Assembly: GCA_027008705.1 (NCBI GenBank)
Contig: JALVEB010000106.1
Coordinates: forward strand, 1-32,015
Length of the DNA: 32,015 nt
Reading direction: 5' to 3'
Origin: Sedimenticola sp.
Lineage (GTDB): Bacteria; Pseudomonadota; Gammaproteobacteria; Chromatiales; Chromatiaceae
Shown here: positions 7,433 through 12,684 of the stretch, piece by piece
How positions within the stretch are numbered: the first letter of the stretch is position 1
Layout of the letters: every line of letters begins with the position of its first letter
Position numbers and translations under genes: made by a program
The notes under the pieces: generated by a model
Databases searched by the model: none
What the model saw: the letters and a program-made list of their open reading frames with translations, nothing else
Told to the model about the DNA's origin: nothing

Positions 7433-8248
7433 ATGCTCCCCGCGATGGCCGGCGCGCTGCTTCTCTATCTGGCTTGTGGTGCGTTGGCCGGCCTGCTTGC
7501 CGGTCTGCTCGGTGTCGGCGGCGGCCTGATCGTGGTGCCCTCGCTGCTTGTCGCCTTCGCCTGGCTCGGTTTTCCGCCCGACAGCGCCACCCATCTTGCG
7601 ATCGGCACCTCGCTGGCCACCATCGTGCCGACCGGTCTCGCCTCGGCGCGCGCTCACCAGCGCCGTGGCGCGCTCGACTGGCCGACGGTCGCGCGGATGT
7701 CACCGGGCCTGGTCGTCGGCAGCGTGACGGGCGGCCTGCTCGCCCGCCGGCTCGACGGCGCTTGGCTGAGCGCCGCCTTCGGCCTGTTCACCTGGTTCGT
7801 GGCCTGGCGCTTGTTGCGTCGGAGCCTGGTGCGTGAAAGCGCCTGTCGGCGCGCCGGCGGCGCCTTCCCGCTCGCGGTTGGATTCGGCATCGGCGCGCTG
7901 TCGGCGCTGGTCGGCATCGGCGGTGGCACCCTGTCGGTGCCCTGGCTGCACCGACGCGGCCTGCGCATCGCCCACGCGGTGGCGACCTCGAGCGCGCTCG
8001 GCGTGCCGATCGCGCTGGCCGGCGCGTTGACCTATGCCTGGGCCGGCATGGCGGCGCGGGGTTTACCGCCTGGCGCCACCGGGTTCGTCTACTGGCCCGC
8101 CTTCGCCGGCGTGATCGCCGCCAGCGTCGCCTGCGCCCCGTTCGGCGCGTGGCTTGCCCACCGCATCGACACCGTCCGGCTGAAACAGCTCTTTGCGCTG
8201 TTCCTGCTCGTCATCGGCGCGCGCCTGCTGTTTAGCTCTGTTTCTTGA
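7433..8248 (+). CDS. TSUP/TauE-SafE family membrane exporter
   Basis: Integral membrane protein of 271 residues with about eight hydrophobic helices, belonging to the TauE/SafE (TSUP) family of sulfite, sulfonate or other small-anion exporters. The two internally repeated halves each carry the glycine-rich signature: GLLGVGGGLIVVPSL at about residues 24-38 and LVGIGGGTLSVPWL at about 160-173. Family membership is clear but the substrate is not. The start ATG 7433 follows alaS by 9 bp with CAGGA as ribosome-binding site, consistent with co-transcription. The last 17 bp overlap the convergent gene at 8232-8894. Confidence 0.9.
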   Translation: MLPAMAGALLLYLACGALAGLLAGLLGVGGGLIVVPSLLVAFAWLGFPPDSATHLAIGTSLATIVPTGLASARAHQRRGALDWPTVARMSPGLVVGSVTGGLLARRLDGAWLSAAFGLFTWFVAWRLLRRSLVRESACRRAGGAFPLAVGFGIGALSALVGIGGGTLSVPWLHRRGLRIAHAVATSSALGVPIALAGALTYAWAGMAARGLPPGATGFVYWPAFAGVIAASVACAPFGAWLAHRIDTVRLKQLFALFLLVIGARLLFSSVS

Positions 8249-8894
8249 ACAACAACAGCTTGCCGTCCTCGTCGCGCAACACCATGCGCCCGTCGCGAAT
8301 CGCGTATTCATAGCTTTTGACGAGCTGGTTGTCGTTGTTGCGGAAGCTGATATAGCGGTCGGTGTGGCGCTCGTCTCCCTGTACATACTCGTCGCGGCTG
8401 ACATAGAGCCGGAACATGCCGCGCCCGATCACCAGCCATTCGCCGTTGCGACCGCGCCATTTTCCCTCCAGGCTGTCGGGATCGCTGCTCGGATCGCCGG
8501 CGGGCCAAGCCTGGCGCATCCAGCTCTGGCTTTGGCGGAAATAGGGCGAAAGCAAGGTCGACGGCAAACCGGCGCCGACGCCGCCAGCCAGCCCCGGCAT
8601 CCCCATCATCGCCGACTGGCCGGGCAATCCGGCGCCGGGGATCGAGGCGCCATAAGGCAGCGCCCCCGGCGTCCAGGCGCCTGTGCCGGGCAAGGCCGCT
8701 GGCGCGCCCGGTGACGCAAGGAAGGGGTTCAGCCATGGGTAGGGGTCCTCGTCGAGCAGACCCATCAGGCGCATCATCGTGCGCATCGCGGCAATGAATG
8801 GGTTGTCGCCGGCGCTGCCGTGGAAGGACCGCGCCGGCGTCCCGGTCGCCGTCAGGCACAGAGCGAGCAGCAGGGTCCCGGGCAGGAGGCGCAT
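8232..8894 (-). CDS. Secreted protein of unknown function
   Basis: I do not recognise the family. The 220-residue product starts with a good Sec signal peptide (MRLLPGTLLLALCLTATGTPARS, likely cleaved near residue 20-23). It then has a short amphipathic stretch rich in methionine (about 35-50), a Gly/Pro/Ala-rich linker (about 58-125), and a compact C-terminal domain (about 140-220) that looks beta-rich, beginning LEGKWRGRNGEWLVIG. The C-terminal part resembles a small stand-alone beta-barrel-like module but no named domain can be claimed. Periplasmic or outer-membrane location is inferred from the signal peptide; no lipobox cysteine is present. It faces the TSUP gene, sharing 17 bp at the 3' ends, and diverges from rsd. 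Confidence 0.8.
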   Translation of the reverse strand: MRLLPGTLLLALCLTATGTPARSFHGSAGDNPFIAAMRTMMRLMGLLDEDPYPWLNPFLASPGAPAALPGTGAWTPGALPYGASIPGAGLPGQSAMMGMPGLAGGVGAGLPSTLLSPYFRQSQSWMRQAWPAGDPSSDPDSLEGKWRGRNGEWLVIGRGMFRLYVSRDEYVQGDERHTDRYISFRNNDNQLVKSYEYAIRDGRMVLRDEDGKLLLFKKQS

Positions 8895-9030: not shown

Positions 9031-9480
9031 ATGACAGAAGAGAATGCAACCGTCGTAGAACGGCGCGGAAGAACCCGGGAGATGGTGGAGAAGCTGCTGG
9101 TCGAGCGCCAGGAAATGCTGGTGTTGTTCTGCCAGGTGGCGGGGCTCGACCCCTTCACCGACAAGGCCTCGGTCAGTGAACGTCTTCAGCGTTTCTGCCA
9201 AGTGCTGGTCGACTACATGGCGTTCGCCCATTTCGAGATCTACGACCGGCTCGCGCGCGGAAAGGAACGGCGCGCCGGGATCCTGGCGACCGCCGAAGAG
9301 GTCTACCCACGGATCGCGTCGCTGACCGAGCAGGCGGTCGAGTTCAACGACAAATACGATGACACCTCGCCACGGGCCGATCTGAGCGAGCTCGCGGCCG
9401 ATCTCTCGCACCTTGGAGAGGTGCTGGCCGAGCGGGTCGAGCTGGAGGACCGCCTGATCGCCTCGATGGTGTCCGGCTGA
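9031..9480 (+). CDS. rsd: Rsd/AlgQ-family anti-sigma-70 factor
   Basis: Regulator that binds region 4 of the housekeeping sigma factor (RpoD) and lowers its occupancy of RNA polymerase. The product has 149 residues (E. coli Rsd 158). Recognition rests on the family blocks FCQVLVDYMAFAHFEIYDRL, YPRIASLTEQAVEFNDKYDD and a C-terminal LGEVLAERVELEDRLI; it is all-helical with no membrane segment. The start at ATG 9031 (MTEENATVVERRG) is taken from family length; an in-frame ATG at 8983 would add 16 residues and cannot be excluded, since neither has a strong ribosome-binding site. The cyclase-like gene follows after 19 bp, so the two are probably one operon. Confidence 0.85.
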   Translation: MTEENATVVERRGRTREMVEKLLVERQEMLVLFCQVAGLDPFTDKASVSERLQRFCQVLVDYMAFAHFEIYDRLARGKERRAGILATAEEVYPRIASLTEQAVEFNDKYDDTSPRADLSELAADLSHLGEVLAERVELEDRLIASMVSG

Positions 9481-9499
9481 ACGGCGCCCGGCGGAGTCG

Positions 9500-11851
9500 A
9501 TGTTTCAACTGAAGACGCTGAACCGCTGGTGCCCCCCGGAAGACGAGTTTCTGGCTCCACTGAGAGTTGCCCCGCCGTGCCGGGATCTGCTCTCCGGTTT
9601 TCCGCGTGGCGTCGACAACGTCCGCGTCGACGTTCTGCTGAGTCAGCGCTTTACCGATATCGCCAGCGAATGGGCCAGCGCCTTGTTGCAGCAGCGTCTC
9701 GGTGAACTGCATCAGTGGAACGGCGAGCCGTTCGGACCGACCACGAAAAACCTCGAACAACGCTTCCGCGACGCCTATGCCTCCTTGCAGCAGGTCGTCA
9801 TCGAACGCGCGCGCAACGAATCGGCGCCGCAACTGCTCGATCTTTTCCATGTCGCGGTCTTCAGCTACCTGCTCGAGCTGCCGGTGCGCGAACATCAACG
9901 CGTGCGCAAGCGCCTGACACGGATGCTGGGGATGGGCGCGAGCGGCACCAATGAGCACGCCCTGACCTTGAACGAACGGCTCGTCCGTCTTGCCAGCCAC
10001 GAACGCGCGATTCGCTATCATCTGACCCGCTCGTTGTTTCGCCCGGTCTACAAGCTCGAGATCGGCCACTTGCGCAAGGCGAGAAAATCGGTGCTCGGAC
10101 GTTCCTGGCAGATCCCGGTCGATTGCCTGTTCAATCCGCTGATGCAGCTTCCCGGCTTCGAAGCCGACGACGAGTTCATGCGCCACTACCCGCTGTGCTT
10201 CTCCGACCCGGAACATGGCGAAGAGCTGTTCGCCAGCCTCGTCGGGCTGTTGCGCGAGCTGTTCGGCCCCTACCTGCCGAAAAGCGTGCTCGCCACCAGC
10301 GGCAAGAAGCTGGGTCACGTTCACCAGCCCACCCTGGGTTATCTCTCGAAGTACTATTTCAACGAAGAACTCTATGGCCGGGAGGGCAGCTGGCTCGACG
10401 AGCCGGACAACTTCTGGTTGCTGATCGGCTCGCCCGAGCTTGCCCGCGGCAGCCGCGCCAGCCTGATCCAGGTGTATTCCGCCCACTGGCGCGACGACCG
10501 CTGGCCCGAGTACCAGAAACTGCTGCGCAAAACCCTGTTGCGGCGTTTGCGACCGGTGCGCAACCTGCTGCTGGCGGCGCAGTATACCCCCGAGGTATGC
10601 GGCGGACTCGACCAGCCGTTGCCGCCGCGTCTGGTCTACCTCTACCTCGCCGGGCGTCTCGCGCGCAAGGAGCTGCTGCGCCGGCTCGAGGCGCTGACGG
10701 TTGGATCGCCCCAGCCGCTGATGCGCGCGCTCGATCAAGCCCAGCGCGCGATGCGTCGGTTCTCGTCCGCCGAGCGGACGAAGCGCGTGCTGCGCGGTTT
10801 CGAGGGCTTCTTGAGCCTGCGTCGCGATGGCAAGCGCGCCTTGCAGTTCATGCGCCTGCAACACAGCTTCCGGCTGCTCGAAAACCCCGACGAGGTAATG
10901 CTCTCGCGTGCCAACGGGGTATTGCAAGAACTGCTCTTCGCCAACGAGATGCGGGGTCAGAGCAAGGCGGTGCGTACCCACGTCATCGTCAAGGCCGACC
11001 TGCGCGGCTCCTCGGCGATCATCTCGCGCCTGATCGCCGACAAGCTGAACCCCGCGACCTACTTCAGCCTGAACTTCTTCAACCCGATCACGCGCGTGGT
11101 CGAGGAACTGGGCGGGGAGAAGGTCTTCGTCGAAGGTGACGCGGTGATCCTCGCGGTGATCGAGCACGAAGGGGTCGGCAGTCGTCGCCAGGCGGTGGCT
11201 CACGCCTGCCTGCTGGCGCAGAAGATCCTCGAGGTGGTCGATCGCAAGAACGCCGGCAACCGCAAGCACAAGCTGCCGGAGCTCGAGGTCGGACTGGGCA
11301 TCGCCTACTCCGATTCTCCTCCCACCTACCTCTACGACGGCGACAAGCCGATCATGATCTCGCCGGCGATCCACCGCAGCGACCGCCTCTCATCCTGTCA
11401 TTCCGACGTGCGCAAGCAGGTCTTCAAGACCCGCGGACGCGGCATCGAGGTGGTCACGCCGAGCCACGGCCGCATGGAACACAAAGCCGACAGCGAAAAC
11501 CTGCTGCGCTACAACGTCAATGGCATCGAACTCGACGCCCCGGCCTTCATCAAACTGAAGAACGAACTGGTGCTGCGTCGTTTCGAGGTGCTCGACAAGA
11601 CCCGGGACGAGGCGGTGTGGATGTATGCCGGTCGTTTCACCGATCGCGTCGGCGGTGTGCACTGGCTGGTGATCCGTGAAGCGTCCGTGCGGGTGTGGGA
11701 AGAGGACGGCCGTCTGACCCCGGATCCGAAAGGCCGTCATTTCTATGAAGTCATCACCGATCCAGAGCAGATCGCGCTGGCGCGCAAGCGCATGAGCACC
11801 AGCTCATCCGGTGAGTTCGCCTCCTCGGCCTTGCGTCCCGAACCCGGCTAG
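9500..11851 (+). CDS. Large protein with a divergent class III nucleotide cyclase-like domain
   Basis: 783-residue protein with no family name I can give. Residues 1 to about 480 are predominantly helical and unrecognised, with no signal peptide and no obvious membrane span. Residues about 493-650 resemble the class III adenylate/guanylate cyclase catalytic fold. THVIVKADLRGSSAI carries the first metal aspartate (D500) and GGEKVFVEGDAVILAV the second (D547). The substrate-lysine position four residues before D547 is phenylalanine (F543), and the usual VNxAxRL segment is replaced by ISPAIHRSDRLS, so ordinary ATP or GTP cyclisation is doubtful. About 130 further residues follow. The start ATG 9500 has GGCGGAG upstream. 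It sits 19 bp behind rsd, suggesting a signalling link to sigma-70 availability; that is inference. Confidence 0.8.
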   Translation: MFQLKTLNRWCPPEDEFLAPLRVAPPCRDLLSGFPRGVDNVRVDVLLSQRFTDIASEWASALLQQRLGELHQWNGEPFGPTTKNLEQRFRDAYASLQQVVIERARNESAPQLLDLFHVAVFSYLLELPVREHQRVRKRLTRMLGMGASGTNEHALTLNERLVRLASHERAIRYHLTRSLFRPVYKLEIGHLRKARKSVLGRSWQIPVDCLFNPLMQLPGFEADDEFMRHYPLCFSDPEHGEELFASLVGLLRELFGPYLPKSVLATSGKKLGHVHQPTLGYLSKYYFNEELYGREGSWLDEPDNFWLLIGSPELARGSRASLIQVYSAHWRDDRWPEYQKLLRKTLLRRLRPVRNLLLAAQYTPEVCGGLDQPLPPRLVYLYLAGRLARKELLRRLEALTVGSPQPLMRALDQAQRAMRRFSSAERTKRVLRGFEGFLSLRRDGKRALQFMRLQHSFRLLENPDEVMLSRANGVLQELLFANEMRGQSKAVRTHVIVKADLRGSSAIISRLIADKLNPATYFSLNFFNPITRVVEELGGEKVFVEGDAVILAVIEHEGVGSRRQAVAHACLLAQKILEVVDRKNAGNRKHKLPELEVGLGIAYSDSPPTYLYDGDKPIMISPAIHRSDRLSSCHSDVRKQVFKTRGRGIEVVTPSHGRMEHKADSENLLRYNVNGIELDAPAFIKLKNELVLRRFEVLDKTRDEAVWMYAGRFTDRVGGVHWLVIREASVRVWEEDGRLTPDPKGRHFYEVITDPEQIALARKRMSTSSSGEFASSALRPEPG

Positions 11852-12100: not shown

Positions 12101-12140
12101 AGCTCGGAACCCCTCCCGATTGTGGTAGTCTAAGCGCCGA

Positions 12141-12492
12141 GAGTCAGCCGGATGGCCGCCGTGGCGTCGCCGCGGAGGAAAGTCCGGGCTCCAATGGACA
12201 GGGCGCCAGGTAACGCCTGGGGGGCGCAAGCCCACGGAAAGTGCCACAGAAAACATACCGCCGATGTTCGCAAGAGCAGGCAAGGGTGAAAAGGTGCGGT
12301 AAGAGCGCACCGCGCCCCTGGCAACAGGGGTGGCAGGGTAAACCCCGCCCGGAGCAAGACCAAATAGGGGGGCAGGCTGAAAGGCCACGCGTGGTCCGCG
12401 CGGTCCCCGGGTAGGTCGCTAGAGGCGCATGGCGACATGCGTCCCAGATGAATGGTCATCCTCGACAGAACCCGGCTTACAGGCTGGCTCTC
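12141..12492 (+). ncRNA. rnpB: RNase P RNA, bacterial type A
   Basis: Catalytic RNA that removes 5' leaders from pre-tRNAs. The ends pair: GAGTCAGCC (from 12141) with GGCTGGCTC (to 12490). The universally conserved blocks are all present and in order: GGAGGAAAGTCCGGGCTCC near 12173, ACCGCCGATG near 12259, AAGGGTGAAAAGGTGCGGTA near 12283, GGAGCAAGACCAAATAGG near 12351, and GACAGAACCCGGCTTA near 12464. The P12 arm is reduced to about four base pairs with a GCAA tetraloop (near 12266-12277), shorter than in E. coli. rnpB just upstream of mraZ is a known gammaproteobacterial arrangement. The 3' end lacks an intrinsic terminator; a pyrimidine-rich, G-poor stretch follows. Ends are accurate to a few bases. 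Confidence 0.96.
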
Positions 12493-12684
12493 TTCTTCCA
12501 ACTTCTCTTTCCAATTGTTGCCTATTGTGTCGTTTTGGGCTTCTCCCTCCTTCCGTTCGTGACAACTTACTTTAACTTGCTTTCTTAGTTTTTTGGTTTT
12601 CCAGCCGAAAGCCAGCGTCATTTTATCGTCTCGAAAAAAACGTTTTAAGTTGCTGTCCGCAAAAGGGAATTCTTGACTTCCGCC
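12493..12684. other. AT- and pyrimidine-rich intergenic stretch after rnpB
   Basis: This stretch is strikingly lower in GC than its surroundings. Its first 110 bases are mostly C and T with few G on the plus strand, which fits a Rho-utilisation (rut) region ending the rnpB transcript; that role is inference. AAAACGTTTT at 12637-12646 is a palindrome. No protein gene is supported. Confidence 0.45.

Follow-up and report, generated by a model that had tools for sequence, protein, structure and literature searches.

Rsd helps determine the availability of sigma-70 while growth slows. In the DNA of Sedimenticola sp. studied here, a gene for an Rsd-family protein is followed by a gene for a large, cyclase-like protein, which raises the question of whether the second protein could act on the first. 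The window, i.e., the whole stretch of DNA that was analysed, comprises positions 1-32,015 (32,015 nucleotides) of the forward strand of contig JALVEB010000106.1 from assembly GCA_027008705.1, and the locus in question is located at 9,031-11,851. The first-pass annotation had proposed that a nucleotide-binding partner encoded together with Rsd could sense a nucleotide signal and release or capture the anti-sigma factor. A full-text search, mostly of open-access literature, found no work pairing Rsd or sigma factors with cyclases. The 783-aa gene downstream of rsd is referred to below by the working label RCL (Rsd-linked, cyclase-like).

The rsd-RCL locus

The following features were assigned in the window.

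8232-8894, minus strand: 220-aa gene of unassigned family, divergent from rsd; a conserved upstream neighbour that adjoins rsd in 68 of the 83 pair loci for which over 1.5 kb of upstream DNA was available
9031-9480, plus strand: rsd/algQ, 149-aa anti-sigma-70 factor of the Rsd_AlgQ family (PF04353, match to PDB 2p7v)
9481-9499, no strand: intergenic gap of 19 bp with a Shine-Dalgarno-like GGCGGAG before the ATG (read from the sequence)
9500-11851, plus strand: RCL, 783-aa soluble protein with an ATG start and without a Pfam or NCBIfam family (16-member alignment A1)
9500-10957, plus strand: N-terminal region of RCL, residues ~1-486, family-specific, with no known domain found and with conservation below that of the cyclase-type domain
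10961-11485, plus strand: predicted divergent class III cyclase-type domain, residues 488-662 (hhalign, fold search)
10997-10999 and 11138-11140, plus strand: putative metal aspartates D500 and D547 within this domain
11489-11815, plus strand: C-terminal region of RCL, residues 664-772, family-conserved (alignment A4)

The gene layout given in the first-pass annotation was correct: rsd and the 783-aa gene both lie on the plus strand and are separated by 19 bp. A pattern scan of the gap revealed neither a terminator-like nor a sigma-70 promoter-like site. The assignment of the first gene to the Rsd family was confirmed as well, by a full-length match to PF04353 above the curated cut-off (E 1.5e-41; 142.3 bits against a cut-off of 35; residues 1-146, profile positions 1-149 of 150). 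A phmmer search against the PDB matched the E. coli Rsd structure 2p7v with an E-value of 2.4e-16, and the score against the NCBIfam sigma D regulator equivalog NF008723 was 125.1 bits, under its cut-off of 139. In E. coli, Rsd binds region 4 of sigma-70 and has HPr and SpoT as regulatory protein partners, according to PMC6904343. The 149-aa gene thus resembles E. coli Rsd in matching the family over its full length; the difference lies in the partners, which are HPr and SpoT for the E. coli protein, whereas the neighbour here is a cyclase-like gene.

Distribution and gene neighbourhood

All 210 genomes of the order were searched, with RCL accepted at E ≤ 1e-10 and Rsd at E ≤ 1e-5. Since all 139 genomes listed in the RCL search belong to the family of the window, "order" here means in effect one family. 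RCL was found in 119 of the 210 genomes and Rsd in 106 (105 with an Rsd match above the family cut-off). Both genes were present in 98 genomes, RCL only in 21, Rsd only in 8, and neither in 83, so that their presence is associated (Fisher p 1.6e-28 over 210 genomes, kinship ignored). The same was seen at the level of genera (n = 61, counted by hand), where 25 had both genes, 7 RCL only and 6 Rsd only (Fisher p 9e-6, kinship ignored). In 95 of the 98 genomes with both genes, rsd is located upstream of RCL on the same strand, with 15-718 nt between the match edges. In two of the three non-adjacent cases (G018 and G163) RCL lies near a contig end, with 119 and 461 nt of DNA upstream, so the pair may have been split by a contig break; the third (G082) carries a weak Rsd elsewhere, at 32 bits and below the cut-off. 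The first-pass annotation had named restriction of the pair to a single genome as evidence against its proposal, and with 95 adjacent pairs among 210 genomes this is not what we found. A search for plasmid copies gave no match. The association of rsd and RCL exceeds chance, and the two probably constitute a two-gene transcription unit that is ancestral in this lineage; same-strand adjacency was observed directly, and co-transcription is what we infer.

Such adjacency could also be no more than synteny. According to this explanation, the segment 220-aa gene-rsd-RCL-slt was inherited vertically in one lineage by genes without shared function, with RCL acting independently as a nucleotide-binding regulator. 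We consider this a serious possibility, although short of probable. In its favour, the immediate neighbours of the pair are conserved too: besides the 220-aa gene upstream, slt was found downstream in 69 of 80 loci. Because of this, the adjacency of rsd and RCL is only moderate evidence of shared function. On the other hand, the order of the pair on one strand is kept in nearly all genomes with both genes, while both neighbours almost always point the other way (the 220-aa gene in 68 of 68 loci, Slt in 68 of 69) and, being so oriented, cannot share the rsd-RCL transcript. In addition, the pair persists without either conserved immediate neighbour in 3 of the 71 loci with both flanks (G221, G078 and G229). 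Co-evolution was also considered as support, using partial correlation of distance matrices. The values were 0.57-0.60 for Rsd-RCL, 0.50-0.74 for RCL-Slt, 0.52 for RCL and the 220-aa gene, and 0.86 for RCL-TauE; since the other genes match the value of Rsd, this measure does not single out Rsd and was dropped as non-discriminating.

Two observations concern the flanks in the window. Searches of Pfam and NCBIfam up to E 1 found nothing for the 220-aa gene at 8232-8894, the start of which appears signal-peptide-like by eye. Just downstream of RCL, where 69 of the 80 pair loci carry slt, an RNase P RNA was located at 12140-12495 (RF00010, 327.9 bits).

Mere synteny is also favoured by genomes in which one gene occurs without the other. 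The 21 order genomes with RCL only, some of them incomplete assemblies, have no Rsd match at E ≤ 1e-5. A diverged or broken rsd upstream of RCL was searched for in 20 of these 21 genomes (G175 was left out) and in the three non-adjacent ones, in three frames of the RCL strand and over up to 1.2 kb of DNA preceding the first aligned RCL residue, and none was detected. The upstream DNA was shorter in G077 (101 nt), G018 (119 nt), G163 (461 nt) and G172 (849 nt), and in G100 and G123, where the alignment starts within the gene, less true upstream DNA was covered. In the RCL gene tree, the order copies from genomes without Rsd are scattered over several places, which suggests that Rsd was lost more than once while RCL stayed; this is a gene tree and not a species tree, support is low (0.07-0.13) at some of its deep nodes, and the copies from outside the order do not form one clade. 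The reverse situation, Rsd without RCL in the same synteny, was observed at L112, L113, L115 and L116.

A class sample of 369 genomes contained RCL in 15 (13 of them outside the order), and a phylum sample of 398 genomes in 8 (7 outside the class, all in one family); both samples are draws and not censuses. No rsd was found near RCL at any of 19 loci outside the order, taken from 12 of the 13 class genomes and 7 of the 7 phylum genomes, some with flanks of about 1.5 kb or less. Six of the 13 class genomes with RCL outside the order carry Rsd elsewhere, five of them above the cut-off. The first-pass annotation had also stated that finding the large protein usually without rsd nearby would speak against its proposal. 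This was true in part: within the order, 95 of 119 genomes with RCL have rsd upstream of it, and outside the order none of the 19 loci does. The partnership of Rsd and RCL is therefore not obligate. Taken together, the 19 outside loci and the 21 order genomes without an Rsd match indicate that RCL is not simply an accessory of Rsd, and its retention, with the metal aspartates, in genomes without detected Rsd suggests an Rsd-independent role.

Domain architecture of RCL

Neither Pfam nor NCBIfam yielded a match up to E 1 for the RCL protein of the window, which has one match within its own genome. The highest mean Kyte-Doolittle value over 19 residues was 1.34, which indicates no transmembrane segment by hydropathy. 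No Pfam match under E 0.05 was obtained for the N-terminal region in any of 16 full-length members, or for the C-terminal region in 15 members. Among the columns conserved in at least 95% of 133 RCL sequences, 33 of 54 fall roughly within the cyclase-type domain, the column numbering being about 3 low.

Profile and structure comparisons were used to identify this domain. A profile of 14 RCL domains matched 17 canonical class III domains with an hhalign probability of 94.8. PF00211 reached E 0.12 at best, on 1 of the 14 domains. In the PDB, a search with the domain profile returned weak cyclase matches first (best CyaB, E 0.013), and the full-length RCL profile gave no match at E ≤ 1. A first, single-sequence structure model was set aside (pLDDT 44.1). 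The model used was made with AlphaFold from two sequences for residues 486-772 and is of low confidence (pLDDT 51.9). With this model, the best Foldseek match was CyaC (1wc5), with E 2.5e-5 and TM-scores of 0.31 (query) and 0.44 (target), and all 17 matches at E ≤ 0.001 were class III cyclases, with low TM-scores of 0.30-0.35 by query. The structure of a cyclic UMP synthase, 7r65, was also among the matches (E 1.1e-3). The structural aligner (VIA) gave Z-scores of up to 10.2 to class III cyclases (129 residues, rmsd 3.2) and of 8.6 to one GGDEF domain, which we take to be a fold related to class III cyclases. Judged by the profile comparison and by the low-confidence model, residues ~488-662 form a class III cyclase-type domain, as the first-pass annotation had claimed, albeit one too divergent for Pfam.

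In comparison with class III cyclases (CyaC, Cya2, CyaB; PF00211), RCL appears to share the fold, the order of elements and both metal aspartates. It differs in the K/F/E base pocket and the variable transition-state Asn and Arg described below, in the ~480-aa family-specific N-terminal region, and in lying under Pfam detection; the domain belongs to a subfamily unrecognised by Pfam.

Active site and putative ligand

The active-site residues were read in RCL from 133 genomes, 115 of the order and 18 outside it. Both metal aspartates are near-invariant (D500 in 130 of 133, D547 in 131 of 132). The positions of the pocket compared with the 17 canonical domains are presumably the base-specifying residues of ATP or GTP cyclases. 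Two residues before the first Asp, RCL has K498 (K in 131 of 133), where the canonical domains have F or L. Four residues before the second Asp it has F543 (F in 123 of 132; canonical K/R/Q), and two residues before the second Asp E545 (E in 131 of 132; canonical I/V/M). The position seven residues before the Asn is I or V in 130 of 132 copies and T/S/D in the canonical domains. The base-specifying residues of ATP and GTP cyclases are thus absent from the RCL family, and with the pocket rebuilt to K498/F543/E545, RCL probably recognises its ligand differently from ordinary ATP/GTP cyclases.

The compared Asn and Arg positions, which we assume to be the transition-state residues of class III cyclases, are less uniform. 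The Asn is present in 102 and the Arg in 98 of 132 RCL copies, as against 17 of 17 canonical domains for each, so this pair is not a family-wide feature; the window RCL has His in place of Asn, together with Arg. As read from the alignment, the metal site and the new base pocket are under constraint and the catalytic pair less so. To this extent the nucleotide-binding role given to the large protein in the first-pass annotation is backed, by a near-invariant two-metal site and an unusual pocket that is itself near-invariant. RCL is best read as a cytosolic, putatively nucleotide-binding protein whose ligand would be unusual. Since the transition-state Asn and Arg vary, a nucleotide sensor is more likely than a fast cyclase, and cyclase turnover is doubtful.

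Signs of decay were seen in genus g77 (e.g., L237-L242), where RCL has E at the position of D500 in 3 of 8 copies, one of these also with E at D547, and where Rsd occurs in the same synteny without RCL in one member (G211).

Alternatively, RCL could be an active cyclase making an unusual cyclic nucleotide, pyrimidine or other, which is read by Rsd or by an unlinked protein. We find this rather improbable. The near-invariance of both metal aspartates is in line with it, and so are the 71 copies that keep both Asn and Arg. These comprise 49 of the 92 pair copies, 20 of the 23 order copies for which no adjacent rsd was found, and 2 copies from outside the order, so that RCL may still have cyclase activity. 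It is at odds with the 31 of 132 copies that have Gln for Arg and the 30 of 132 that have Gly, His or another residue for Asn, and with the loss of metal aspartates in g77. The pocket also bears on this alternative. In EaPycC the CTP-binding residues are F100, R142 and Q144 and the metal residues D102 and D146, according to PMC11224242. The replaced positions of RCL, two before the first Asp and four and two before the second, have the same offsets as these CTP-binding residues (PMC11224242), which speaks for this alternative.

Membership of RCL in the Pycsar systems was considered on the basis of a weak match of the window protein to the PADLOC PycC model (E 0.0017). With E ≤ 1e-15, however, this model finds matches in 75 of 143 genomes, one of them being the genome's own canonical class III cyclase; the match of RCL is for this reason non-specific, and the assignment was not accepted. 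RCL and Pycsar PycC are alike in having a class III domain, in RCL a predicted one, with a base pocket unlike that of ATP/GTP cyclases. They differ in that RCL occupies a conserved chromosomal locus, with no order genome searched showing two full-length copies, and in the surroundings: among the eight recurrent neighbour genes scanned (Slt, epimerase, Sel1, DAHP synthase, inositol phosphatase, methyltransferase, thioredoxin and PilZ; also TauE) no Pycsar effector (PycTM, PycTIR, cNMP-binding) was recognised. A cyclic-nucleotide receptor was likewise missing from these families, which speaks against an active cyclase; only a PilZ gene was seen, in one genus.

This gene, of ~134 aa, follows RCL on the same strand in genus g30 (L107:7136-7537, plus strand, and 12 other loci). 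The L107 member, the one checked against Pfam, matched PF07238 with E 3.9e-7, and a link to c-di-GMP is possible. That RCL is part of c-di-GMP or motility control and adjoins rsd by chance is nevertheless highly improbable: a gene of the PilZ cluster lies behind RCL in 13 of 15 g30 genomes, two of them without Rsd, which agrees with it, whereas the loci scanned in other genera gave no homologue (E ≤ 1e-3).

Proposed role of RCL

The best explanation of the data, which we hold tentatively as a whole, is that rsd is co-encoded with a putative nucleotide-sensing RCL that probably tunes Rsd, and that RCL has an Rsd-independent role as well. The class III cyclase-type domain would bind a metal-nucleotide through its two aspartates, as their conservation suggests, and the residues of the K498/F543/E545 pocket point to a ligand recognition probably unlike that of ordinary ATP/GTP cyclases. 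RCL would more likely sense a nucleotide than turn one over quickly as a cyclase. Where a species carries both genes, the ligand state of RCL would probably tune Rsd and hence the availability of sigma-70, either by direct contact or through a shared response to the growth state. Control of Rsd through a protein partner has a precedent in the interactions of E. coli Rsd with HPr and SpoT (PMC6904343), and nucleotide-gated control of Rsd by RCL is plausible. The interpretation offered in the first-pass annotation thus holds in part: the pair is conserved and probably co-transcribed, and the second protein looks like a nucleotide binder. The part to be amended is that RCL has a role of its own.

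A more far-reaching version, which we think unlikely, would make RCL the founding member of a class III-derived kind of nucleotide sensor whose base specificity is new and which binds or releases the co-encoded Rsd. This lineage would then have a nucleotide-gated switch on the availability of its housekeeping sigma factor, in addition to the links to HPr and SpoT described for E. coli Rsd.

With a cyclase-fold neighbour whose unusual pocket is nearly fixed, small-molecule gating of Rsd becomes directly testable within one two-gene unit, and the ligand of RCL is a testable question in its own right.
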